A program made the position numbers and the translations under genes. DNA of 47,938 nt from Opitutus sp. GAS368 (lineage in GTDB: Bacteria > Verrucomicrobiota > Verrucomicrobiia > Chthoniobacterales > Chthoniobacteraceae): assembly GCA_943329925.2 (NCBI GenBank), contig CALQFT020000008.1:1-47938 (forward strand), read 5' to 3'. Every line of letters starts with the position of its first letter. The first letter of the stretch is position 1. This document shows, in pieces, positions 1,888 through 14,745 of the stretch. Below the pieces are notes generated by a model, which searched no databases, was not told where the DNA came from, and saw only the letters and a program-made list of their open reading frames with translations.

Positions 1888-2340
1888 TCAACCCCTGCTT
1901 TCCAACCAGATCCGATCCTGAACGGCGTGCATCGCTTTGCGTTCAGCATCCGTTCCATCAAGAAATCCGTTCAAGTGCAGCAACCCATGAACCATGTACA
2001 AGGCAACTTCCTCCAGCGTGGAATGACCATACTCCCCGGCACAGCGCAATGCCGTTTGGGCGCTGATGATTATCTCTCCATGCTCAAAAGTGATGACGTC
2101 CGTGGCGCCCGGGATGTTCATAAAGTCGCGGTGAATCTGCGCGATACGCCGGTCGCTCACCAGCGACACAACCACCTCCTCCAAAGAACGCAGGGCATAC
2201 ACGCCATCCGCCGAGTGGTCCGCGCATAAAGGCACAGCGCGATGCAACCGCTCTTGAAGCGCGTCAAGATCAAGCGCAACAGCGCGCTGGCGGTTCAAGA
2301 GCACGAGTTCTGGCAGGCGCTCCGCAGCAGGCTCAACCAT
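1888..2340 (-). CDS. ybeY: Endoribonuclease YbeY (rRNA maturation)
   Basis: A 150-residue YbeY/UPF0054 protein, a metal-dependent single-strand RNase involved in 16S rRNA 3' end maturation and ribosome quality control. It has the N-terminal LVSDRRIAQIHRDF strand, the family string GATDVITFEHGEI, and the zinc motif HGLLHLNGFLDG. In the classic motif the metal ligands are H-x3-H-x5-H; here the third ligand position is Asp, a variant also found in some other phyla. The start at 2340 is preferred over an in-frame start at 2373 because GGAGGGAG lies eight bases before it. It overlaps the end of the upstream HD-domain gene by 8 bp, so the two are likely translationally coupled. The order phoH, HD phosphohydrolase, ybeY is a conserved bacterial arrangement. 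Confidence 0.93.
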   Translation of the reverse strand: MVEPAAERLPELVLLNRQRAVALDLDALQERLHRAVPLCADHSADGVYALRSLEEVVVSLVSDRRIAQIHRDFMNIPGATDVITFEHGEIIISAQTALRCAGEYGHSTLEEVALYMVHGLLHLNGFLDGTDAERKAMHAVQDRIWLESRG

Positions 2341-3982
2341 GGCGCTCCCTCCGATCCAGATCCGAGCCACCACCAGAACCGTTACGCTCCAGCAGTTGGG
2401 ACTCCCGCTTCGGAGTGGATTTAGGATAGGCGATTCGAGAATGCATCATACTCCGGAGAGTTCGCTTGAAGCTTTCAGCGACTTCCGCAAGTTCGCTAAG
2501 GCGCAAATCGCACTCCTTTAACTCACCCTGCGCGAGGCGCTTTTGAATCATCTCCTCGACCAGTTGGTCGATCCGGTGCGGGGTCGTCTTCTCCATCGAA
2601 CGCGACGCGCTTTCAATCGAATCCGCCAGACTGACAATGGCACACTCCCTCGTCTGGGGCTTGGGCCCATGGTAACGAAAGGATTCCTCGCGCACCTCCG
2701 GCAAATCTTCCTCCTCGTGCGTCGCCCCGGGGGCGACCAGCCCAGCGCGCAACGCCTCGGCCTGTTGCAGCGCTTTGCGGTAAAAATAGTAGACGGTCGA
2801 AGTGCCGTGATGCTGCTGAATGACGTCGATGATCTCACGGTTGAGCCGATGTTTGATCGCCAAGTCCACGCCTTCTTTCACGTGCGCCACGATCACCAAG
2901 GCGCTCATCGTCGGCGCCAAATCGGCGTGTGCGTCGCGCCCGTGTCTCATATTTTCGACGAAATACTCCGGCTTCACCAGTTTTCCAATGTCATGAAAAT
3001 AGGAGCAAACCCTTGCCATGGCTTCATTGGCCCCAATGGATTCCGCCGCTGACTCTGCCAACTGCGCCACCATGAGGCTGTGGTGATAAGTGCCCGGCGC
3101 CTCCAATGTCATGCGCTTGAGCAGCGGATGATTTAAGTCCGCCAATTCCAACCATGTAATGGGTGTGGTTATTCCAAAAATAGACTCCAGAACCGGTAAT
3201 ATCCCAGAAATCAACAACGCCGCGCCGACGCCACTGACAAGCGTGGCGAAAATCTGCCACCCAATAGAATCCCAACGCGTCAGGGCAAGGTTATTCCAAA
3301 GCAAGGGACCGATCTGCCCCATCAGCAAGTCCAATAAAAGAGTGGTGCACCCTACCACGATCCCCGCCTTGAGCAGTCCGGACCTGCGCCGGACATCCTT
3401 GGTCATTAACGCGGCGGCAAACCCGCTGATCATTCCAACCACCAAGGATCTCGCATTGAGCCCTCCATTTAACATCGCTCCAAACAGACTCCCAAAAATC
3501 GCCAGCACTATTCCCAAGCGCTGTCCCAACAACATGGAAATCAGCATCGGACCGAATGCATAGGGGAGAATCAACTCCCAAAACTGCTTGCGATCCAGTG
3601 CGCTCCAAGCCTCACCGGAAGGCACGTTCGCCTCCAATGCGCCGAGCGAAATCCATCGCACCACTTGCACATGCAGGACCAGCGTTCCAAAGACCAAAAG
3701 CAGGCGCGAGTTGTCCGCCCAAATCTTGGAGTGGTTCATCCAAAGCAACGCCACGGCCATGAAGTAGACAAGCACCTGCACCAGTAAGCGCTCTGCGGCG
3801 CCGGCCTCCCCACTGGAAACCGCTTGCATCAACGCTGCTCCAAGCACCAGCACAATCAGCGCCTTGGCAACGTACCCATACCGTAGAGTGTCCAGCAACT
3901 CGCTGCTGCGCAACCGCCGCCGCCACTTCGCGGAGGCGAGTCCACGCCGAATAAGGCGTTGTCTGGCAAAAAAGGAGAGCAT
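2333..3982 (-). CDS. 7TM-HD family phosphohydrolase (PgpH/YqfF-like)
   Basis: A 549-residue membrane protein. Residues about 37-275 hold some seven hydrophobic segments (7TM-7TMR_HD type), followed by a cytoplasmic HD domain with HH at 300-301, FHDIGK at 329-334, VAHVKEGVDLA and QQHHGT. In the PgpH family this domain hydrolyses cyclic di-AMP; that activity here is inferred. The large extracytoplasmic 7TMR-HDED domain that precedes the membrane region in longer family members is absent: the first membrane helix begins near residue 37, and the upstream gene ends only 15 bp before the ATG, so there is no room for it. The C-terminal tail (about 510-549) is charged and Arg/Gly/Ser-rich. It lies between phoH and ybeY in one transcription unit. 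Confidence 0.88.
   Translation of the reverse strand: MLSFFARQRLIRRGLASAKWRRRLRSSELLDTLRYGYVAKALIVLVLGAALMQAVSSGEAGAAERLLVQVLVYFMAVALLWMNHSKIWADNSRLLLVFGTLVLHVQVVRWISLGALEANVPSGEAWSALDRKQFWELILPYAFGPMLISMLLGQRLGIVLAIFGSLFGAMLNGGLNARSLVVGMISGFAAALMTKDVRRRSGLLKAGIVVGCTTLLLDLLMGQIGPLLWNNLALTRWDSIGWQIFATLVSGVGAALLISGILPVLESIFGITTPITWLELADLNHPLLKRMTLEAPGTYHHSLMVAQLAESAAESIGANEAMARVCSYFHDIGKLVKPEYFVENMRHGRDAHADLAPTMSALVIVAHVKEGVDLAIKHRLNREIIDVIQQHHGTSTVYYFYRKALQQAEALRAGLVAPGATHEEEDLPEVREESFRYHGPKPQTRECAIVSLADSIESASRSMEKTTPHRIDQLVEEMIQKRLAQGELKECDLRLSELAEVAESFKRTLRSMMHSRIAYPKSTPKRESQLLERNGSGGGSDLDRRERHG
2345..2352 (-). promoter_or_regulatory. Strong Shine-Dalgarno of ybeY
   Basis: On the minus strand GGAGGGAG lies about 4-8 bases before the ATG at 2340, inside the end of the preceding gene. 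It decides the ybeY start, and stands out because most other starts in this window have no recognisable Shine-Dalgarno. Confidence 0.7.
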
Positions 3983-3997
3983 ACGAAAAAAATCTGT

Positions 3998-4657
3998 CTA
4001 GCGAACCTCACTGGGCTCGCCCGCACCGCGGTGGCGACGATATGCGCTCACTATGAATGCAACCAACTTGTGCCGAACCACATCCTTATCTCCAAAATGA
4101 CAAAACCCAATCCCGGGCACCCCTCGCAAAGCTTGCAACGCCTCCACCAAACCCGAACGCCGGTTCGACGGCAGATCGATTTGCCTCTGGTCGCCAGTGA
4201 TCACACAATTGGAATCCAGCCCCAGTCGGGTCAGAAACATAAGCATTTGCTCAGGCGTGGTGTTTTGCGCCTCGTCCAAAACAATGAAAGAGCCCGCCAA
4301 CGTGAGGCCCCTCATATAGGCCACGGGCGCGATTTCGATGACATTACGCTCCAAACAACGTTGCATTTCCTCAGGCTCCTGAATGGCTTGCACGTAAGTG
4401 CGTTGGTTCTCCGTTTTAGGAATCACCGCTGCGCGCCGGATCGGAACCCCGTTTTGTCTGGCCTTTTCCAACTGTGCAAACAACCGGCGCACTTGATCCA
4501 CCGCCTCATCGGAGCGCTCCACTCGAAGCCATCCTTCGCGAGTGGTTAAGCGCACTCCAAGCTCTTGTTCTAAAATCTTGAGCAACCCCAAGTCGTTGCC
4601 AAACAACGACTGAAGCGTCAGAGCGCTTTCAAACTGCAGCGTTTCAACTCCTGTCAT
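3998..4657 (-). CDS. PhoH-family protein lacking the Walker A segment
   Basis: A 219-residue PhoH-like protein where the family norm is about 320. The N-terminal domain ([15 protein letters not shown]...) and the conserved linker [14 protein letters not shown] are normal, and the C-terminal half is normal: [15 protein letters not shown], Walker [23 protein letters not shown] and [10 protein letters not shown]. But the linker runs straight into [15 protein letters not shown]. The segment that should lie between, holding the GPAGTGKT P-loop, the TRPAVEAGE motif and the LGFLPGD...PYLRPLYDAL region, roughly 75 residues, is gone without loss of frame. The junction is near 4370-4385. It could not bind ATP in the usual way. 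The ATG at 4657 matches the family start; a TTG at 4705 with GAGGAG upstream would add 16 residues and overlap the preceding gene. Confidence 0.88.
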
Positions 4658-4677
4658 AAAGTCGGATACCGGTCGGT

Positions 4678-5121
4678 TTACCGGAATCCATAGGCGAGCG
4701 ACCAAACCGTGCGCTCCTCGGTGGACTTCTCCACCTCGACCAGCAAGTAGTATGTGCCGGTACGTTTAGGGCGAATCTTCGCTGCAGCTTTCTGGCCTTT
4801 TTGCCAGAACTCGTCTTCGACTAATTTCCCATTTTTATCGTAAATATGAACCGAGATGGTGGCTCCCTTGCTGTCAGTTCCCATCCAGAACCAGTAGTCG
4901 TTTCCTTTAAAAAGTTGATGAGGAATTGGAAGTGGTTGACCTGCTGCAAGATCGCCACCCCAGCGCTCTTCCCTCACCGTAAAACCTTCTTTCACGGCAG
5001 GCTGCGCTGCCTCCAAAGCGTAAGAAAGCGCCTCCACAATTGTCCCGCACAGAGCGCTTTGCACCCCACCATAGAGAAGGGTCGCCGCCATTACTGAAAT
5101 CGCCAGAATTTGTCGTTTCAC
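4678..5121 (-). CDS. Small secreted protein, function unknown
   Basis: A 147-residue protein with a typical signal peptide at the N-terminus ([19 protein letters not shown], cleavage probably after the LCG region). The mature part has [27 protein letters not shown] and [12 protein letters not shown], the beta-strand pattern of a pre-peptidase C-terminal (PPC) or similar extracellular beta-sandwich. Two Trp-rich strands flank a DxNGK turn. No catalytic motif is visible. It sits 13 bp downstream of another secreted unknown and 20 bp before phoH, so it probably belongs to the same transcript. The family is not recognised. Confidence 0.75.
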
Positions 5122-5134
5122 AATATCGGTTCTT

Positions 5135-6010
5135 TTAAAGCCCCTTTGCGCTCACCGCAGCGACCAATTCCCTGCAAATCTTACCAATTTCCGCCACAGC
5201 TTTTACTGGGATCTCGCCATCCCCCTTGCCCATCAGCGGCTGAATTTCGCGCAATCCACCCAGAATTTTAACGATCACGGGAAGGCTCTTTGCGGCTTCA
5301 GGAAGAGCCTGCAACCGGAGATTGAAATGATCAACAAGCACCGGCTGGTACAACAACTCCGCGCCGTCCTTGGAAAGGCTCTTTGACACCACAGCCGAGA
5401 GCGCTTCAGTACCACGGATCCAGCCACCCAGACTCACCAACTGCGCAAGCGACTCACTGTTAAGCTCCTGCATCGCCTGACGCACATCAGAAAGTGCCAG
5501 GTCCAGCTCTTTACGCACCTCCACCCAGCGGCGCTTTTCCGCAAACTCCACGATGGAATTCGCTCGGCGACTCACCGCCTTTTCCACCCCAATAGTCTTC
5601 GCCAACGTGCGCACGCTGTTGCCAATGGCCTTCACCTCCTCCGCATTCTCCGCCTCCACAGCCACAAACCCGTCCGCAATCACTATCCCCAACAACAACG
5701 AAATTTGTTCCTTACCGCCGCTGGGTGCAGCCACCCCTTTTTGCGGGCGCACCACCTCCGCCCATCCCTGCTTGCCGAGTTTGTCCAACGCGGAAAAAAC
5801 TTCGCTGGGAACCGGCACGACGACTTGTTCCACCAGATTTGTAGCCTTAGGAAACTCCTTTAAGGCAATATTTTTGGCGGGTTGGTTGGCCAGCAGGGCG
5901 GTGGAGAGGCTCGCGCAACTCAAGCACACGTTCAACGCGAGCTTCGCCGCAGCGGGCATCTTGGTTGCCGACGCCGCGCCGTTGCGCGCGCAGAGGAATC
6001 GTTGTTTCAT
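5135..6010 (-). CDS. Secreted helical protein, function unknown
   Basis: A 291-residue protein from the ATG at 6010; an in-frame TTG at 6043 would add eleven unlikely residues. The N-terminus (MKQRFLCARNGAASATK, then a hydrophobic AKLALNVCLSCASLSTALLA stretch) reads as a signal sequence. The rest is rich in Ala, Leu, Val, Glu and Lys and looks almost wholly alpha-helical, with no cysteine pairs or catalytic motif in the mature part. Its neighbour 13 bp downstream is also exported, so the two may act together outside the cytoplasm; this is inference from position only. It lies about 85 bp downstream of nadK. Confidence 0.72.
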   Translation of the reverse strand: MKQRFLCARNGAASATKMPAAAKLALNVCLSCASLSTALLANQPAKNIALKEFPKATNLVEQVVVPVPSEVFSALDKLGKQGWAEVVRPQKGVAAPSGGKEQISLLLGIVIADGFVAVEAENAEEVKAIGNSVRTLAKTIGVEKAVSRRANSIVEFAEKRRWVEVRKELDLALSDVRQAMQELNSESLAQLVSLGGWIRGTEALSAVVSKSLSKDGAELLYQPVLVDHFNLRLQALPEAAKSLPVIVKILGGLREIQPLMGKGDGEIPVKAVAEIGKICRELVAAVSAKGL

Positions 6011-6095
6011 AATCTTTAGGTCAATAGCATCATCTATCCTCAAAAAAACTCAACACCGCCTTTTTGTGGCCTCCCGCCCCGCAGTCTAACCTTTG

Positions 6096-6962
6096 CTAGA
6101 CCACCTTGCCGCTCCAACGGAGTTTCTGACGGAGCACTTCGAAAAAGGGCAATCCCAAGGGAAAAACAAGGCGCAACATCTGCCGGGAACGCCTGCAGCG
6201 AATAACATCACCAGCTTGTAATGGAAACGGCGTGCGGCCGTCCAAAGTCAAGCAGACCCCAGGTTCGCCCGCCGCCGGCTGGACCGTGATAGTAGAGCGC
6301 TCGTTGATGATGACACTGCGGTTTGTGAGCACATGCGGGCAAATTGGCGTCACTACAAAAACGCCGGAATCCGGAGCAAGAATAGGACCGCCCGCGCTCA
6401 GTGAGTACGCCGTTGACCCAGTAGGCGTGGCCACAATTAATCCGTCGGCGTTGTACTCGGTGAGCTCTACCCCGTCGATCTGCACTTCCAGACGAATCAC
6501 GGTCGAACGCTCGCCCCTGGACAAAACCATTTCGTTGAGCGCCCGCCCCTTCCAAAACGTTTTCCCCAACCGAACCACCTCAATAGAAAGCAAAGTGCGC
6601 TCGCTAAGAACCACGCGCTCCTCGAGTAAATCAGCCAACACCTGCTTGAAATCTGCGGCGCCGGCACCCGTTAAAAAACCAAGGGTTCCCGTGTTGATAC
6701 CCAAAATGGGCGGCGCTGGAAGCATCCCTTCGTGAATGACTTGCAGAAGCGTCCCATCACCGCCAAGCACGATCAAAAGATCGCACTGCTTAAAGAGTGA
6801 TTTGACGGTTAACTCGGAGTTTAGCCCAAGCAAACCGGCCGTAATGCGATCGAACAAGACGTCACGCCCCGCACTCCGCAGCATATCTACTGCAGACGCA
6901 AGCAACTCCGCGGCAGATGGTTTAGTGCCGTTAGCGATGAAACCTACCGTTTTCCAATCCAT
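6096..6962 (-). CDS. nadK: NAD kinase
   Basis: A 288-residue ATP-dependent NAD kinase, which phosphorylates NAD to NADP in the cytoplasm. The family signatures are all present: VLGGDGTLL with GGDG at 67-70, ILGINTGTLGFLT, the conserved LNEMVLSRG segment, and the nucleotide-binding string DGLIVATPTGSTAYSLSAGGPI starting near residue 174, followed by TPICPHVLTNRS. Length is normal. The ATG at 6962 lies inside the end of tlyA, giving an overlap of 19 bp. The tlyA-nadK neighbourhood is recurrent in many bacteria and supports both calls. Confidence 0.96.
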   Translation of the reverse strand: MDWKTVGFIANGTKPSAAELLASAVDMLRSAGRDVLFDRITAGLLGLNSELTVKSLFKQCDLLIVLGGDGTLLQVIHEGMLPAPPILGINTGTLGFLTGAGAADFKQVLADLLEERVVLSERTLLSIEVVRLGKTFWKGRALNEMVLSRGERSTVIRLEVQIDGVELTEYNADGLIVATPTGSTAYSLSAGGPILAPDSGVFVVTPICPHVLTNRSVIINERSTITVQPAAGEPGVCLTLDGRTPFPLQAGDVIRCRRSRQMLRLVFPLGLPFFEVLRQKLRWSGKVV

Positions 6963-7675
6963 GCGAGAAATTCGACGTTACCATCTCCACCTTTAATCGG
7001 TGACTCTAAAATAGCGCGCCACTCCAAGCAGGGATGTAGGGCTACCCAATTTTGAATTCGCTCCACCGCCTTTTGATGAAGCAGCGGATCCCGCACCACT
7101 CCGCCCCGCCCGACTTCCTCACGCTGTAATTCAAACTGCGGTTTAATCAACACAACCGCCATTCCGCCCGCTCTGACCCGCGCCAATGCAGCCGGAAGAA
7201 TAAGCGTCAGGGAAATGAAAGACACGTCAGTGACCAGTAAATCTACAAGCTCCGGCACTTCGGCTTCACCCAAATAGCGGCAGTTTAATCGCTCAAGAAC
7301 AATCACCCGCGCATCGCTTCGGATCCTCCAATCCAACTGCGAATGCCCGACATCCACAGCGTAAACCTTTGCCGCTCCATGTTGAAGAAGACAGTCAGTG
7401 AAGCCGCCAGTGGAGGCGCCAACATCCAAACACACCATCCCTTGCGTCTCAATTCCAAAACCTTGCAACGCCCCCTCCATCTTCAATCCCCCTCGCCCCA
7501 CGTAGCGCGGCCCCGCCTCAAGCGCCACCTCCGAGTCTATCTCCACGCGACTCCCCGGCTTGTCCATTCGCTGGCCGGCCACCGTCACCTGCCCCGCCAT
7601 GATGGCCCGCTGCGCCCGTTCGCGGCTCTGGGCCAGGCCGCGTTCCACCAAAAGAAGATCGAGGCGCTGTTTCAT
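6944..7675 (-). CDS. tlyA: TlyA-family RNA 2'-O-methyltransferase
   Basis: A 243-residue protein of the TlyA/hemolysin-A-like family. An N-terminal S4 RNA-binding domain (KQRLDLLLVERGLAQSRERA, then AIMAGQVTV) is followed by a GRGGLKMEGAL linker and an FtsJ-like Rossmann methyltransferase with the SAM loop DVGASTGGFTDCLLQ, YAVDVGHSQLDW, VTDVSFISL and VLIKPQFE. Family members methylate ribosomal RNA; the old name hemolysin should not be read as toxin activity here. The ATG at 7675 is preferred to an in-frame TTG at 7684. It lies 36 bp after gspE and overlaps nadK. Confidence 0.94.
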   Translation of the reverse strand: MKQRLDLLLVERGLAQSRERAQRAIMAGQVTVAGQRMDKPGSRVEIDSEVALEAGPRYVGRGGLKMEGALQGFGIETQGMVCLDVGASTGGFTDCLLQHGAAKVYAVDVGHSQLDWRIRSDARVIVLERLNCRYLGEAEVPELVDLLVTDVSFISLTLILPAALARVRAGGMAVVLIKPQFELQREEVGRGGVVRDPLLHQKAVERIQNWVALHPCLEWRAILESPIKGGDGNVEFLAWIGKR

Positions 7676-7711
7676 CAATCGCAAGTATTCTAACGCTTTG
7701 CTCGCGGAACA

Positions 7712-9418
7712 CTACTCGTCAGGCAGTTCGTCGGCCTGAGTCACTCGCAGCACTTCCTCAATGGTCGTTTGCCCACGCAACACTCGCCGCCAGCCGTCCG
7801 TGCGCAACGTTCCCATTCCATCCAGCACTGCGCGGGCTTTCATTTCCGTGCCAGTCGCCTTCTTGACCACCAAGCGCCGCAAAGGCTCGGTGAGCACGCA
7901 AATTTCGTAAATGGCCGTCCGCCCACGATACCCCGTTTGCCGGCAATGCTCGCAACCCTTGCCCTTGTATAAAACGGTGCCCGGCGGGACAACTAAACCC
8001 AGTTCTTTCAAATACTCCTCGGGATATTCCACCGGCTCCTTGCACTGCACACATAGCGTTCGCACAAGACGTTGTGCAAGAAATGCACGCACCACACTAG
8101 CCAGCAAAAACGGCTCGATCCCCATGTCCAGCAAACGCGTTATCCCACCCACCGCGTCGTTAGTATGCAGGGTGGAAAACACCACATGCCCGGTCATCGC
8201 GGCGCGGATGGCGATTTCTGCCGTCTCAAAATCACGAATTTCTCCCACCATGACCACGTTGGGATCCTGACGCAAAATGGCGCGCAACCCGTTGGCAAAG
8301 GTCAGATTAATTTCCGGTTTAACGTCGATCTGCGACACGCCTGCAAGCCGATATTCCACCGGTTCTTCGATGGTGATAATCCGGCGGACCACCGAGTTAA
8401 TTGACGTCAAAAACGAATACAAGGTTGTTGACTTTCCAGAGCCAGTGGGCCCCGTCACCATGATAATCCCATTCGGTAAGACCAAAAGCGCCTGTGCAAT
8501 ACGCAACTGCTCCGCGGTCATGTCGAGGCGATCCAGGCCGAATTGCAGCGTCTCACTGCGGCTCAACAGACGCAGGGAAATGCTCTCGCCATTAACCGTC
8601 GGGATGGTCGAGACACGCACATCTATTGCTCCACCAGGAGTTTGCAAATTAATACGTCCGTCCTGCGGCAATCGGCGCTCTGCGATGTCCATGTGCGCCA
8701 TCACTTTGAGACGCGAAATGATCGCGCTCTGCAAGCGGCGCAATTGAGGTGGAACCGCCACCTCGTGCAGAATACCGTCGATGCGATAGCGGATGCGCAA
8801 ATCGTTTTCCAGCGGTTCAACGTGAATGTCTGTGGCGCGTTCGTGGATGGCCTCGCGGATGATCTGGTTGACGAACTTCACCACGCTCGCCTCAGGGTCG
8901 TCGCTGGCGATGTCGTGAGCCTCCTCACGGTCCTCCTGATTGTCGTAGCGGGTGGATTGAAGCAGTTCCTCAAGCGTCTCGGCGCCAACGCCGTAGAGCG
9001 ACTTGATCGTCCTCAGCAGTGGCCCCCTCGCGCACAGCACCCATTCCACACGGCGCCCCGGAAGATTCTGCTCGGCCAAACGGCGGGCCGAGATGTTGAA
9101 AATATCGTACGTCGCGATCCGAACCAACTTATCCTCGATGCGCAGCGGGAGAATGTGGTGCTTGAACACCAGTCGACTGGGAAGCAACTCCAGAACAGCG
9201 CGTTCCACCTGTGCTGACTCAGCGGCCACGTATTCCGTGCGGGCCATTTTCGCCAACTCCTGCGCGAAATGAACCTCGTCAATTTTCCCCGTGTCCAAGG
9301 CGGCTACCGTCCAACTGCCACCGGGAGCCGGAGCAAGAGCCGCGATTTCCCGAGCCTCTTCGATTGTGGCCACTCCACTAGCCTGCAATAATCCAACCAA
9401 AGCTTGGCGCGCACTCAT
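7712..9418 (-). CDS. gspE: GspE/PilB-type secretion or pilus assembly ATPase
   Basis: A 568-residue cytoplasmic ATPase that powers type II secretion or type IV pilus assembly. The N-terminal GspE-N domain (1-150) is followed by VNQIIREAIHERATDIHVEP, Walker A GPTGSGKST at 323-331, the Asp box VEYRLAGVSQI, Walker B VVMVGEIRD, the His box GHVVFSTLHTNDA, and a zinc module with CVQC and CEHC pairs near 455-500 followed by GYRGRTAIYE. Length and domain order are normal. It starts 9 bp after the secretin gene, so gspD and gspE form a unit. No platform protein or pseudopilin gene is visible in this window, so they must be elsewhere. Whether the machine secretes or pilots cannot be decided from the sequence. 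Confidence 0.95.
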   Translation of the reverse strand: MSARQALVGLLQASGVATIEEAREIAALAPAPGGSWTVAALDTGKIDEVHFAQELAKMARTEYVAAESAQVERAVLELLPSRLVFKHHILPLRIEDKLVRIATYDIFNISARRLAEQNLPGRRVEWVLCARGPLLRTIKSLYGVGAETLEELLQSTRYDNQEDREEAHDIASDDPEASVVKFVNQIIREAIHERATDIHVEPLENDLRIRYRIDGILHEVAVPPQLRRLQSAIISRLKVMAHMDIAERRLPQDGRINLQTPGGAIDVRVSTIPTVNGESISLRLLSRSETLQFGLDRLDMTAEQLRIAQALLVLPNGIIMVTGPTGSGKSTTLYSFLTSINSVVRRIITIEEPVEYRLAGVSQIDVKPEINLTFANGLRAILRQDPNVVMVGEIRDFETAEIAIRAAMTGHVVFSTLHTNDAVGGITRLLDMGIEPFLLASVVRAFLAQRLVRTLCVQCKEPVEYPEEYLKELGLVVPPGTVLYKGKGCEHCRQTGYRGRTAIYEICVLTEPLRRLVVKKATGTEMKARAVLDGMGTLRTDGWRRVLRGQTTIEEVLRVTQADELPDE

Positions 9419-9427
9419 CGCAATATG

Positions 9428-11860
9428 CTAGGAAGCAGACGGTTTCGCCTGGGATTTTGGCGTCTTGCCCTTTGATGACGCAGGCGGCTCCACCGGCGTA
9501 ACCACTGGAATCGCGGCGGGCGCAGAAGTCGCCCCTTTGGAAGATTCCCCTCCCGGTTGGACGGCAGAGGGATCGGCTCGGAAGCTCTTGAGCGGTGGCT
9601 TCCCCTCCCCTTTCTTCGCCGGCAATTCCGGAGCAATCAATTCCTCTTCAAGGGTGCGAGGAATGCGGAAAGCTTTCAGGTTGCGGTCTCGAACCTCGTA
9701 TCCCTCTGTTGGATCCATACTGACTGAGGGACGGATAAGTACCAGCAACTCGGTGCGCGTTTTGACATCCGAGGTGCTGCGAAAAAGACCACCTAACAGA
9801 GGGATCCTACCCAAGATTGGAATGCCGGAGTTTACTTTTTTTCGAGTGTCCTTAATGAGCCCACCCAGCACCAGCGTCCCATCGTTGGGTACCATCACGG
9901 ACGTCTGCAACTGGCGATTTGCAATGATTGGATACTCGTTAACGCCATTGCTGTCCTTAATCGGCGTACTTCCCGTAATTTCATCAAGACTCTGCACAAC
10001 ATCAAGATACACTTCCTTGTCGCTATTAATCAATGGCACCACTTCCAGACTCAGATTCACCGGAATGTATTGCACTTGGTTCACCACGGAGTTTCCCGCA
10101 GTAGTCGGAGAGGACTGGGATCCGGTGATAACCGCGATTTTTTCCCCGCTTACAATCGAGGCCTTTTTATTGTTGCTGGTGAACAGGCTTGGACGCGAAG
10201 TCACCTTGAATTTCGAGGTGGACTCCAACGCCGTCACGATGGCCGAGAGGGTATCTCCGGCGGAAATAAACCCAGTCATTCCTCCAGCACCCCCAGCGAA
10301 AGCCCGGGTGAAATTTGGGGCAGCGGCCAATTGCTGCAGACTTTGATTAAAAGGCCCGCCTCCACTCAATATTGACGATGCGCTGGAGCCTCCAGTTACC
10401 AAATCGCGACGCCCCTTGTGGAGAAGATAATTCACTCCAAATTCTTCATCCTGTGAGAGGGTTAACTCGCCGATGACGGTCGTGAGCATGACTTGGGGCG
10501 TGCGCACGTCGAGTTGCTCGAGAATTTTGCTCACCTTGTCTTTAATGTCTGTGCTACCGATGACCAAAATTGCGTTACTGCGCTTGTCCGCCATGATGCG
10601 CGAATTGCCGACCAACACCGTTTGAGGGATAATTTCGTGCGGCTCAGTCTGGAGGCTCAGGGGAGAAGCCGAGGAAGACGCTCCACCCAAACCACGACCG
10701 CCCAGCTGGTTGCCAAACTGGGAGTTGTTATTCGCCGCGGGAGTCGGCGTTCTATTTTGCGGAGTACCCGTCGAACCGGTTGCTCCTGTTGCTCCGGAGT
10801 CCTTGCTGCCTGGGTCCGAAACAGCCTTCACTAGGGCGTCCAAAATATCGCCCGCAGACACAAATTTGAGAGGCCGCACCATCGGCTCACTGAAAGGCAC
10901 GTCTCTGTCAAAATCCTCAATCAATTTGCGCAATATCGGCAAGTTCACCGGACGACTCACCACATAGATCCGGTTGGTCCGCTCGTCGGCAGTGAGGCGA
11001 ACCTTTCCCGCAAGCATGGAGTCCTCGTTCATGCCGCCGATTTCAACTGTAGTAAGCTGACTCGGCGCAGGCGCGGCTCCCGGTTGCCCTCCGGGCTGCG
11101 GTGGTGCAGCGGGACGCGGGGCGCTAGGGGCAGATTGAGGAGTCTGAGTTTTTTCAAAAAGCTTCTCCAGCATCTGAACAACGTCTTTTGCCGAAGCACG
11201 CTGAAGTGAAATAAACTCCCCTTCCACTCGGGTCGGCTCCAAATCAGCCGCACGAATAATACGCATCAAGCCCCGCAAAATAGCCGTATTCTCCGTAATA
11301 ATCAGCGACTGCGCCTTGGGCAGTGGCACTATGTTTGGAGCGTACTCCTGACGCGAGGGCGGCATCGCCTGCTGCAATACCTGCGCCATTTCCGTTGGAT
11401 CCGCATAACGCAGTTTGACCAGATACATGATCACCTGCTCGTTGTCAGGAATGGGCTCGGGCTCAGCAAGAATAGGGACACCGACTTGGCGCGGAGAACG
11501 TCCGATGCCAGTCGCCTTGATCAAATTGGGATCCGTATCCGAAGGCACCAGATGGTAACCGTTCATCAACAGGGTAATTTCAATGATCCGAATTGCCTCT
11601 TCCTTAGGAACTTCCGGCACATTGATATTTACCTGCCCCTGCACAGTGTTGTCGTAGATGAGGCGTTTGCCCACCAACAACTCGTACTGGGAAAGAACGT
11701 CACGCACATCAGCGTTGGGAAAAGTGAGCTTCACCATCTCCCCTTGGGCGCGGTCTGCCTGCGCGTAAAGGGCAACCGGGACAGACAGAGGCCCGGCCAA
11801 AAGGGTGGCAATAGCGACCGCTGGAAATAATAGCAGATAAGGACGCGAGGGGAGTGGCAT
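9428..11860 (-). CDS. gspD: Type II secretion system secretin GspD
   Basis: An 810-residue outer-membrane secretin. From the ATG at 11860 the protein begins with a signal peptide (MPLPSRPYLLLFPAVAIATLLAG); an upstream in-frame TTG at 11935 would place 25 unlikely residues before it. N0/N1/N2 domains follow (VKLTFPNADVRDVL, a repeat of IIRAADLEPTRVEGEFISL type, VNLPILRKLIEDFD), with Pro/Gly-rich and Ser/Gly-rich low-complexity linkers near 240-270 and 355-400. The secretin core has VMLTTVIGELTLSQDEEFGV, a GTLVLGGLI strand and the hallmark VPILGRIPLLGGLFRS. The C-terminal 70 residues are a Pro/Lys/Ser-rich tail, possibly a pilotin-binding S-domain substitute. It is followed 9 bp later by gspE. 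Confidence 0.93.
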   Translation of the reverse strand: MPLPSRPYLLLFPAVAIATLLAGPLSVPVALYAQADRAQGEMVKLTFPNADVRDVLSQYELLVGKRLIYDNTVQGQVNINVPEVPKEEAIRIIEITLLMNGYHLVPSDTDPNLIKATGIGRSPRQVGVPILAEPEPIPDNEQVIMYLVKLRYADPTEMAQVLQQAMPPSRQEYAPNIVPLPKAQSLIITENTAILRGLMRIIRAADLEPTRVEGEFISLQRASAKDVVQMLEKLFEKTQTPQSAPSAPRPAAPPQPGGQPGAAPAPSQLTTVEIGGMNEDSMLAGKVRLTADERTNRIYVVSRPVNLPILRKLIEDFDRDVPFSEPMVRPLKFVSAGDILDALVKAVSDPGSKDSGATGATGSTGTPQNRTPTPAANNNSQFGNQLGGRGLGGASSSASPLSLQTEPHEIIPQTVLVGNSRIMADKRSNAILVIGSTDIKDKVSKILEQLDVRTPQVMLTTVIGELTLSQDEEFGVNYLLHKGRRDLVTGGSSASSILSGGGPFNQSLQQLAAAPNFTRAFAGGAGGMTGFISAGDTLSAIVTALESTSKFKVTSRPSLFTSNNKKASIVSGEKIAVITGSQSSPTTAGNSVVNQVQYIPVNLSLEVVPLINSDKEVYLDVVQSLDEITGSTPIKDSNGVNEYPIIANRQLQTSVMVPNDGTLVLGGLIKDTRKKVNSGIPILGRIPLLGGLFRSTSDVKTRTELLVLIRPSVSMDPTEGYEVRDRNLKAFRIPRTLEEELIAPELPAKKGEGKPPLKSFRADPSAVQPGGESSKGATSAPAAIPVVTPVEPPASSKGKTPKSQAKPSAS

Positions 11861-11944
11861 GAGACTAGGGAGCAACTGTCCTGTGCAATTCTCACTCTGG
11901 CAACTGCCAACTCGCAAAAACCTGCACGGGCCCAAATCACGAAA

Positions 11945-11976
11945 CGCGCCCTCTCCCTGAATTTGGAAGGGGCGCG
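11945..11976 (-). terminator. Hairpin downstream of the isomerase/oxidoreductase pair, possible terminator
   Basis: CGCGCCC at 11945-11951 pairs with GGGCGCG at 11970-11976, and an inner TCC/GGA pair extends the stem. On the minus strand it lies 25 bp past the stop at 12001 and before gspD, so it could end the upstream transcript. Only a short T-run (TTT) follows, so termination would be weak or of another kind. Confidence 0.4.
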
Positions 11977-12000
11977 CCCGCTATAATGTAAGAAATAGTG

Positions 12001-13146
12001 TTAAACGTGCTTCACGTCACGCCATTGTCCCTGCTTGGCGGAATCCAGCACGGCGTCACACACGTACTGTGTTTCCAACGCATCGCGGAAGGTCGGAGCC
12101 GCGGGTACTCCATCGGCGATACCCTGGAAGAAGTCAGCAACCTGATGAACGAAGGTGTGCTCATAACCGATCTGCAAACCAGGCACCCACCACTTGCTCA
12201 TGTAAGGATGGTCGCCATCTGTCACATGAATGGAGCGCCAAGCGCGTAGATTGCCCCGGTCACGGTGATCGAAGTACTGCAACCGGTGCAGATCATGCAG
12301 ATCCCACGCGATGGAAGCATTCTCCCCGTTGATTTCAAACGTGTACAAGGCCTTGTGCCCCCGGGCGTAGCGAGTCGACTCGAAAGTCGCCAGTGAACCG
12401 TTGGCAAAACGTGCGAGGAAGGCGCAGGCATCGTCAATCTTCACTTCCTGCTTCTGTCCGGTGAGGCTGTGCGTGCGCTCCTTAATGAAGGTCTCTGTCA
12501 TCGCCGTGACAGAATCAATGTTGCCGTTGAGCCAAAGCGCCGTGTCGATACAATGCGCCAGCAAGTCACCCGTCACGCCGGAACCAGCCGCGGCCGCGTC
12601 TAAACGCCACAGCCCGGCCCCGCCTTGGGGAAGTTCCGCGCTGATAGTCCAATCCTGCAAAAACTTTGCGCGATAATGGAAAATGCGACCCAAGCGCCCT
12701 TCGTCGATCAACTGCTTGGCGAAGGTCACCGCAGGAGCGCGACGGTAGTTGTACCACACCATATTGGCTACTCCGGCCTTCTCTATTTCGCGCACCATTT
12801 CCTCGCCCTGCGGCCCGTCCATGGAGAGAGGCTTTTCACACATGACCATCTTTCCCGCGCGGGCGGCGGCGATGGCGATTTCGGCATGGGAATCGTTTGG
12901 GGTACAGATATCGATGACGTCAATATCACTGCGCTCGATGAGCTTGCGCCAATCCGTTTCGGAGCTCTCCCAGCCCCAGCGCTCGCAGTAATCCTTGAGC
13001 TTGGCTTCGTCACGCCCGCAGGCGGCTTTGAGCACAGGCTTGATGGCCAGATCAAAAAAGTTGGTTACCTTGCGGAAGGCGTTCGCATGGGTACGCCCCA
13101 TGAAGCCGTACCCGACGATGCCGACGTTGAGTGTTTTTTTGGACAT
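12001..13146 (-). CDS. Gfo/Idh/MocA family oxidoreductase
   Basis: A 381-residue NAD(P)-dependent dehydrogenase of sugars or cyclitols. The Rossmann fold opens with [19 protein letters not shown], and the family signature [13 protein letters not shown] follows near residue 117, with its catalytic-region Lys. The C-terminal domain holds [21 protein letters not shown], where the His is the usual substrate-site residue. There is no export signal, so the enzyme is probably cytoplasmic. It lies 42 bp downstream of a sugar-phosphate isomerase/epimerase-like gene, a frequent partnership in sugar or inositol breakdown. The exact substrate is not readable. Length is normal. Confidence 0.92.
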
Positions 13147-13188
13147 AAACTGATTGTTGTTGGGGTTTCTAAAAAATAGATAGGGGCA

Positions 13189-14223
13189 TTAAATATTCCA
13201 ACCGTGAGCGTCGCGCACCTTAAGCATGGCGGCGAGAATCGTATTCCAGGTCTGCTGGGACTCTAGCAACTCGTTGGAGAACATGCAGCCGTCCCAGCAT
13301 ATGTGCTGCAAACCGCGCTGAGCCGCTCCCTCGAGCCAGAATCCCGCGCAATGGGCAATATCGAGCTTGCCGTTGGGATCGTCGGCGAGGCAATGGCGAC
13401 CCGTCTTGTCGTGGGAACCTGTCCCATGCACAGAGCCATCATTTTGAGCCACATGGAAGTCGATGGTCCAAGGCCGCAGAGCGTCGGTCATCTGGCGGTA
13501 GGCGGCATCAAACTCTGCGGAGGAGTGACCCGGTTTCAGCAACCCGTGCTCTGGAGCGTTGTAGCCCAGCAGGTAAAGGTAGGTGTGCGCGAGATCCGCT
13601 TGAAACCCGACGGTGCCGGGCATCCCCACCTCTTCAAGAAGTTGGACCATGTATTTCCAGGAATGCATCCCGGCCCAGCAGATCTCGCCCTCAGCGGCCA
13701 GACGCTCCCCGTGGGCGGCCGCTACCGCTCCAGCTTCACGGAAGGTCGCGGCAATTTTGCTCGTGTTGCCCGCTGGATCCGCAGCCCAGTGCGAAGGTGA
13801 GTCGGCGGCGTCGATGCGGATGATGCCGTATTTGCGCACGCCGTGGCGATTGAGAATCCCCGCGATGCGGCAGGCTTTTTCTACTGCGAGCACGAACTTT
13901 GCGCGCTGTTCGGCGGAGCCCATGGAGGAGTCGCCGACGGTACCAGGCCAGACAGGCGCGACTAGAGATCCGACATTTAATCCTTTGCTTGCAATGAGAT
14001 CCGCCATCCGCTTGATGTCATCATCGCTGGCGTCCGGATCCGTATGGGGATGAAAGAGAAAAATATCTACGCCGTCAAACTTGTGGCCATCCACCTCGGC
14101 GTGCGCCGTTAAATCGAGCATGCGCTCCAGGCTGATGGGGGGGTGGTCGGTGTTGGGCTCTTTGCCAACGAGGCCAGGCCACATGGCATTGTGAAGTTTG
14201 GGGAAATGGTTTTGGGAGCTCAT
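13189..14223 (-). CDS. Sugar phosphate isomerase/epimerase-like TIM-barrel protein
   Basis: A 344-residue AP-endonuclease-2-like TIM barrel of the xylose-isomerase-like superfamily. Supporting segments are [68 protein letters not shown] and [21 protein letters not shown], which hold the Glu, Asp and His residues expected to bind a divalent metal at the barrel end. No signal peptide is seen. It is first in a two-gene unit with the Gfo/Idh/MocA oxidoreductase. Both probably act on one sugar or cyclitol in the cytoplasm. The substrate cannot be named. Confidence 0.88.
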
Positions 14224-14745
14224 AGAGAACCTACTTCGTCTCTAAATACGGCCAAGGCGACAAGCCTGAAGCGCATTTTTTTGCGATACTGAAATGTGCC
14301 GCCACCACACCGGATTGAGTCTAGGGCGTTTTATTTTGAAGTCAGATTTCTGGTTGAATCGCTGTTTTGCTAGTGTTGGCTGCGCACAAAGCCTTTCCCG
14401 CTATGTGGGTAAATGGCTGTCCATCCGTCCCATGCGCGAATACATTAGTTCTGATTTTTCTTATTAATCGGGGCACTCCGGATCTTCACAATATTCCGAC
14501 TGCCCGTAAAATCTGCGCTCAACGGCTCTACCGTTTTGAAACTGAACTCCCGCTTTTCAATCCGTCAAAGGCCAGACAGAACTTCGACTAGGAGAGCTTG
14601 GCTGAGTTTGCGAGCGTGGGAATCTACGGTAAAAATTTGGGCTGGCATCAAGTTCATACCAAACCTTTTAGCCGTGTAAAAAAGATCCATTGCCCAAGCT
14701 CCTACAAATATCCACCTCGCCCTTCGCCGCCGGCCGCGATGTGCT
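14224..14745. other. Divergent intergenic region with no gene recognised
   Basis: About 520 bases between the isomerase gene (minus) and the YbjN-like gene (plus). It is more AT-rich than its surroundings and should contain both promoters. A 74-codon frame at 14367-14591 has no family resemblance and no ribosome site. A stretch near 14590-14670 resembles the D-arm side of a serine tRNA but does not fold into one. I see no riboswitch. Confidence 0.5.

Follow-up and report, generated by a model that had tools for sequence, protein, structure and literature searches.

The question raised by this locus is whether a ybeZ-type phoH gene has lost the nucleotide-binding half of its ATPase core while its reading frame stayed open, and whether such a loss reflects a genuine deletion, a working variant of the protein or a fault of the assembly. 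The window, i.e., the whole stretch of 47,938 nucleotides analysed here, corresponds to positions 1-47938 of contig C8 of a draft genome (G000; 3.80 Mb in 287 contigs, 93.5% complete). P-loop ATPases that are devoid of Walker A and the surrounding strands are not expected to bind ATP normally. YbeZ itself, an ATPase-like protein, is conserved as a partner of the RNase YbeY and has no settled role. A study on E. coli found that YbeZ binds YbeY in two-hybrid tests and called its function still unknown (PMC5101352), and a review describes YbeZ as a highly conserved YbeY partner that is involved in the biogenesis of the 16S rRNA platform and 3'-domain (PMC10582724).

An earlier note, made from the sequence alone, had described a PhoH protein from which about 75 residues around the P-loop are missing in frame, with both sides well conserved and Walker B intact, and had offered three readings: an in-frame deletion of recent date, an evolved non-ATPase variant or an assembly collapse. 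The coordinates of all features considered here are given in Table 1. The frame runs from an ATG at 4655-4657 to a TAG at 3998-4000 and encodes 219 aa; an internal stop or frameshift was looked for along 3998-4657 of the reverse strand and none was found. Within the protein, a 14-residue linker joins directly to a 24-residue stretch such that the P-loop segment is gone, i.e., the Walker A sequence GPAGTGKT is absent, while Walker B is kept in frame as VLDEAQNTT, just as the note had it.

Table 1. Features of the phoH locus, with coordinates in the window.
Feature	Position	Strand	Remarks
ybeZ-type phoH remnant	3998..4657	-	single open frame, 219 codons, two internal in-frame deletions
N-terminal domain, residues 1-70	4448..4657	-	KH-like predicted fold; carries R13L and G48R
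96-bp deletion junction	4427..4439	-	6-bp direct repeat CGGCGC at the segment edges in G006
222-bp deletion junction	4369..4380	-	5-bp direct repeat GGAGC at the segment edges in G006
C-terminal ATPase-core remnant	4001..4374	-	DEAQ kept; L112V, R118L, K150N, T158R at conserved positions
HD-domain membrane protein gene, 549 aa	2333..3982	-	downstream of phoH
ybeY, mechanical frame	1888..2373	-	true start uncertain; overlaps HD 3' end; full-length alignment with genus
gene upstream of phoH, 147 aa	4678..5121	-	omega 0.043 vs G006

Family tests agree with this picture. The Pfam PhoH profile (PF02562) is matched at positions 89-204 of 205 only, with 152.5 bits against a cut-off of 27, such that positions 1-88 remain unmatched. 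For the NCBIfam equivalog PRK10536.1, against which the window protein alone was scored, 96.1 bits are reached where 380 are demanded. The protein resembles YbeZ/PhoL (PF02562) in the position of its gene before the HD gene and ybeY, in its KH-like N-terminus, in the DEAQ of Walker B and in the C-terminal GD..Q.DL and DVVRH motifs. It differs by the missing Walker A, by a missing 32-codon linker segment and by an R in place of the T of GD-x-TQ.

With regard to the gene order, phoH is followed by a gene that presumably encodes an HD-domain protein, the name also used in the earlier note. It starts 15 nt past the phoH stop, and ybeY comes after it, so the operon neighbourhood described earlier holds. 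The order of phoH and then the HD gene was also measured in relatives; a matching start was found in eight of the other genus members (not in G009), and there the gap between the two genes spans 18-33 nt. The textbook zinc motif of YbeY reads HGxLHLxGYDH. As a side observation, YbeY of the window and of eight aligned relatives reads HG(L/M)LHLNG(F/Y)xD, i.e., the third histidine of the zinc motif seems to be replaced.

We compared the locus with the closest relative found, G006, which we take to be the Spartobacteria MAG KT_bin-1681 (CAIXGS010000046.1) and whose HD protein is 93.8% identical to that of the window at the amino acid level. Its phoH is full-length and has both segments that are missing in the window. 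The DNA alignment places a gap of 222 bp (74 codons) at window position 4374/4375, and the segment absent from the window carries Walker A, TRPAVEAGE and LGFLPGD. The loss of the P-loop segment is thus confirmed. It extends further, since another 96 bp (32 codons) are missing in frame just upstream at 4432/4433, ahead of the PKT linker, a gap that had been overlooked.

In G006, both missing segments are bordered by short direct repeats (Table 1). If every in-frame deletion of 60-300 bp that the G006 gene allows is considered, 0.8% have repeats of at least 5 bp and 0.2% of at least 6 bp. The two gaps are also the only indels above 21 bp in the 12.4 kb shared with G006 (window 1888-14302), which is the span that this comparison covers, given that contig C46 of G006 has no match to the rest of the window. 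A general tendency towards deletions was not seen in these aligned 12.4 kb, where the next largest indel measures 21 bp. We also searched the window's own genome assembly (93.5% complete) for a displaced copy of the missing segment and found none.

The possibility of a form without P-loop shared by the whole lineage was considered as well and is refuted for the genus. A ybeZ-type PhoH was found in 9 of the 11 other genomes of the same genus, where the profile is matched at positions 2-204, and GPAGTGKT is aligned in all nine; the remaining two (G002 and G007) show no ybeZ-type PhoH and no HD gene either. The search for a second phoH in the window's genome (E≤0.001) yielded one further PhoH-domain protein, located on contig C7 (10862-11533) within a 505-codon frame. 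It shares the PhoH ATPase domain with the window protein and differs by an intact P-loop, GKAGTGKT; presumably it is a PIN-PhoH (PhoH2-type) protein. Independent of this, the close PhoH relatives include four loci (L093, i.e., CALQJI020000003.1, as well as L072, L077 and L110; 56-61% identity over the best segment) whose records are titled as Klebsiella pneumoniae, Proteobacteria and Clostridiales MAGs; these titles may be wrong.

We then asked how the retained part of the gene evolves. Columns that are invariant among eight genus members and Chthoniobacter flavus were used as reference. At 120 such columns of phoH, the window shows 8 private changes (R13L, G48R, L112V, R118L, T135P, F139L, K150N and T158R) and G006 none (binomial p 0.008). 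For the HD gene, we count 2 window-only and 2 G006-only changes at 210 columns, and for ybeY 1 vs 1 at 51, such that the contrast between phoH and its two neighbours is borderline (Fisher p 0.055). Two of the eight changes, T135P and F139L, lead to residues that are common elsewhere in the PhoH family, and L112V is mild. Set against 30 diverse homologues, window PhoH breaks 3 of 50 invariant columns, among them that of G48R, which is the highest count in any of the 31 rows; its sister breaks 0/50. The earlier statement that both sides of the gap are well conserved thus holds only in part, given that G48R, R118L and T158R hit strongly conserved positions.

For phoH, the protein branch of the window measures 0.083 and that of G006 0.056; for the HD gene, the values are 0.026 and 0.052. 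The pairwise omega between window and G006 is 0.092 for phoH, compared to 0.037 for the HD gene of the same two; two intact phoH pairs of similar dS both give 0.035. Overall, the phoH value nevertheless stays well under 1. When rates were tested against one outgroup at a time, none of the nine outgroups gave a significant result (p from 0.096 to 1.0). The dS to most outgroups is saturated, too far for synonymous changes to be polarised. The signal of relaxed selection in phoH rests on few sites, and it suggests that the retained part has begun to drift. An open frame is compatible with this: when 20 random changes were introduced into simulated phoH copies, 51% were still free of stops.

The drift bears directly on the question of whether the deletions exist at all. 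In the case of an assembly or library artefact, the genome would hold a normal phoH of which a deleted path was assembled, e.g., from chimeric reads joined at short repeats, and the draft state of the genome speaks for this. An assembly collapse is nevertheless disfavoured because the retained part drifts at conserved sites, which its two tested neighbours do not, and an artefact would have to have struck twice, each time in frame. For the same reason, the deletions are probably not brand-new: with drift apparently under way in what is retained, we judge them to be probably real and of an age that allowed some drift.

To assess how often the P-loop is lost, we searched with a 75-position C-terminal profile built from 12 sequence pieces and listed stop-to-stop frame lengths. 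Within the order, 139/147 genomes gave a match, and frames below 300 aa were found in G000 itself (255), G022 (114), G481 (202) and G003 (286), where the G481 frame is cut by a contig end and the G003 frame begins at one. The family of G380 gave 70 matches in 69/78 genomes with a single short frame (224), that of G380 itself. In a phylum sample with matches in 133/194 genomes, the sole frame below 300 aa besides G000 belongs to G204 (228). In the latter, a single contig of 2.2 Mb, ybeZ is split by a frameshift that separates the KH/linker part from the P-loop core (L140, C1:1784000-1786500), which leaves the P-loop present. Taken together, about 303 different genomes carry a ybeZ-type gene (hand count over the three listings) and 3 are without P-loop due to an internal deletion, a lower bound because a long upstream open frame can hide a loss. 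A motif script run on 88 loci (L003-L032 and L059-L116) recognised the PhoH frame in 85. Two loci, L116 and L078, did not fit the strict Walker A pattern; L078 reads GPAGVGKT and thus keeps its P-loop.

The two further cases are as follows. G022, a draft from the same family, has a ybeZ frame of 114 codons (L045:2910-3251) from which about 225 codons are gone in frame. The KH domain is largely missing, as is much of the core, while the C-terminal end is little changed. The Victivallales MAG CSMAG_1858 (L116:1995-2606, the locus of G380) has a 203-aa ybeZ frame directly before an HD gene and lacks both Walker A and Walker B; here 120 codons were deleted in frame at a GCTCAA repeat that is seen in the relative G532. 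As in the window, a ybeZ-type gene of a draft genome has in both cases lost its ATPase core internally and in frame. They differ in their breakpoints, in the additional removal of Walker B and in a remaining part that shows no evident drift, and may therefore be very recent or artefacts. All four large deletions in the three genomes are in frame (chance about 1/81). We did not accept this bias as proof of selection; it is only suggestive because a phoH frameshift does exist in the single-contig genome G204.

As a control, LepA was surveyed in the same 147 genomes, with matches in 130. Short or split frames were found at contig ends in G525 and G458, and G007 has the gene split over two contigs, one piece starting from base 1. 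G452 shows a frame break beside unresolved bases, G496 a second, partial match, and in G510, a draft of the same order (L137, C135:4000-7000), about 50 bp are lost out of frame near the C-terminal domain. A conserved gene can therefore be found broken in a few drafts. A LepA shortened in frame was not seen among these matches, where losses masked by an upstream open frame would not show, and all full-domain frames besides G525 and G452 have at least 600 aa. In complete E. coli genomes, ybeZ is matched in 5374/5426 (52 without match), and each of the 5374 matches covers at least 80% of the gene, a limit that would let a 96-bp loss pass.

For the artefact reading, these numbers cut both ways. 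That the three genomes with a P-loop-less ybeZ are all drafts, two of them with no evident drift in what remains, that drafts such as G510 and G452 contain faults or losses in LepA and that the complete E. coli genomes show such uniform coverage is in its favour, while the lack of any in-frame shortened LepA in the 130 genomes stands against it. Along with the drift at conserved sites, this leaves an artefact in the window unlikely in our view.

The remaining alternative is a YbeZ that works without ATPase, i.e., a protein whose KH RNA-binding domain and remaining tail would serve as a scaffold that still binds YbeY or pre-rRNA. We therefore turn to the predicted structure, for which AlphaFold was run with 31 aligned sequences and Foldseek was used for structural matches. 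Residues 1-70 are modelled confidently (block means of pLDDT from 86 to 96), and the predicted N-terminal domain is KH-like, matching KH2 of FUBP1 (6y2d, E 0.004) and PNPase (E 0.012). The whole model reaches a pLDDT of 72.4 and a pTM of 0.40 compared to 87.5 and 0.82 for its full-length sister, and the target-normalised TM to the solved PhoH 3b85 is 0.40 vs 0.90. That is, the chain could plausibly fold in its N-terminal part, whereas the ATPase-core remnant without its P-loop half is poorly modelled. With this entire half missing from the RecA-like core, the protein would be without normal ATP binding.

Such a scaffold would fit the confident KH-like model, the preserved frame of all deletions, the low omega and the two-hybrid contact between the E. 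coli proteins. However, the KH part itself carries R13L and the G48R change of an otherwise invariant residue, the core remnant models poorly, and the form is shared by 0/9 genomes of the genus that have the gene. There is also no common shortened architecture, because the other truncated cases lose different segments, with most of the KH domain missing in G022. We thus grant a working short YbeZ a small probability, and the earlier suggestion of an evolved non-ATPase variant finds little support. Quite improbable is the broader proposal that YbeZ acts as a small ATPase-free KH protein serving YbeY or ribosome maturation, with recurrent in-frame removal of the core in Verrucomicrobiota.

How severe a loss of this ATPase would be can be related to its distribution. 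No PhoH-domain match was obtained for 87/387 sampled genomes of the phylum (E≤1e-10, with 7 first-look candidates scored per genome). PhoH loss thus seems to be tolerated in the phylum, since so many genomes give no match, which weakens the expectation that an ATPase loss at this locus would be notable. The 87 genomes include 18 listed ones of the genus g30 (family f15), all 98-100% complete, which looks like a clean loss across the whole genus.

Given these comparisons, the locus is probably a genuine deletion mutant of ybeZ (phoL/phoH) in decay, shaped by deletions at short repeats in a dispensable gene and subsequently by relaxed selection. According to this reading, replication slippage or microhomology joining at the 5-6 bp direct repeats would have deleted segments of 96 and 222 bp, both in frame, from the window branch after its split from G006. 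The YbeZ ATPase would have been lost in this lineage, and the rest of the gene would then have drifted under relaxed selection. The gaps against G006, their size, frame and repeats, their absence from relatives and the excess of changes at conserved sites were observed directly; the reality of the deletions, their mechanism, the ATPase loss and the order of events are what we infer. Of the three readings offered at the outset, the in-frame deletion is thus the one retained, in the form of two events that are probably not brand-new, while the assembly collapse loses ground to the drift. The still open frame would mean either that the loss is young or that translation of phoH helps that of the HD gene 15 nt downstream and of ybeY; perhaps such translational coupling keeps the frame.

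With regard to the literature, our search found no work on a PhoH pseudogene in Verrucomicrobia and none that treats in-frame deletion, direct repeats, replication slippage and pseudogene together. Among works on PhoH, Walker A and deletion, none is, by the excerpts available, evidently about a PhoH without P-loop.

Overall, the locus appears to show the real, ongoing loss of a gene in a single uncultured lineage, and is as such mostly ordinary; as plain gene decay, which we think likely, it is of modest interest. If the deletions are real, they would mean that the ATPase is dispensable in a natural lineage that retains YbeY and the operon, they would allow one to ask in a natural setting which YbeZ part is important for YbeY, and they would show how a gene within an operon can be emptied without a break of its frame.
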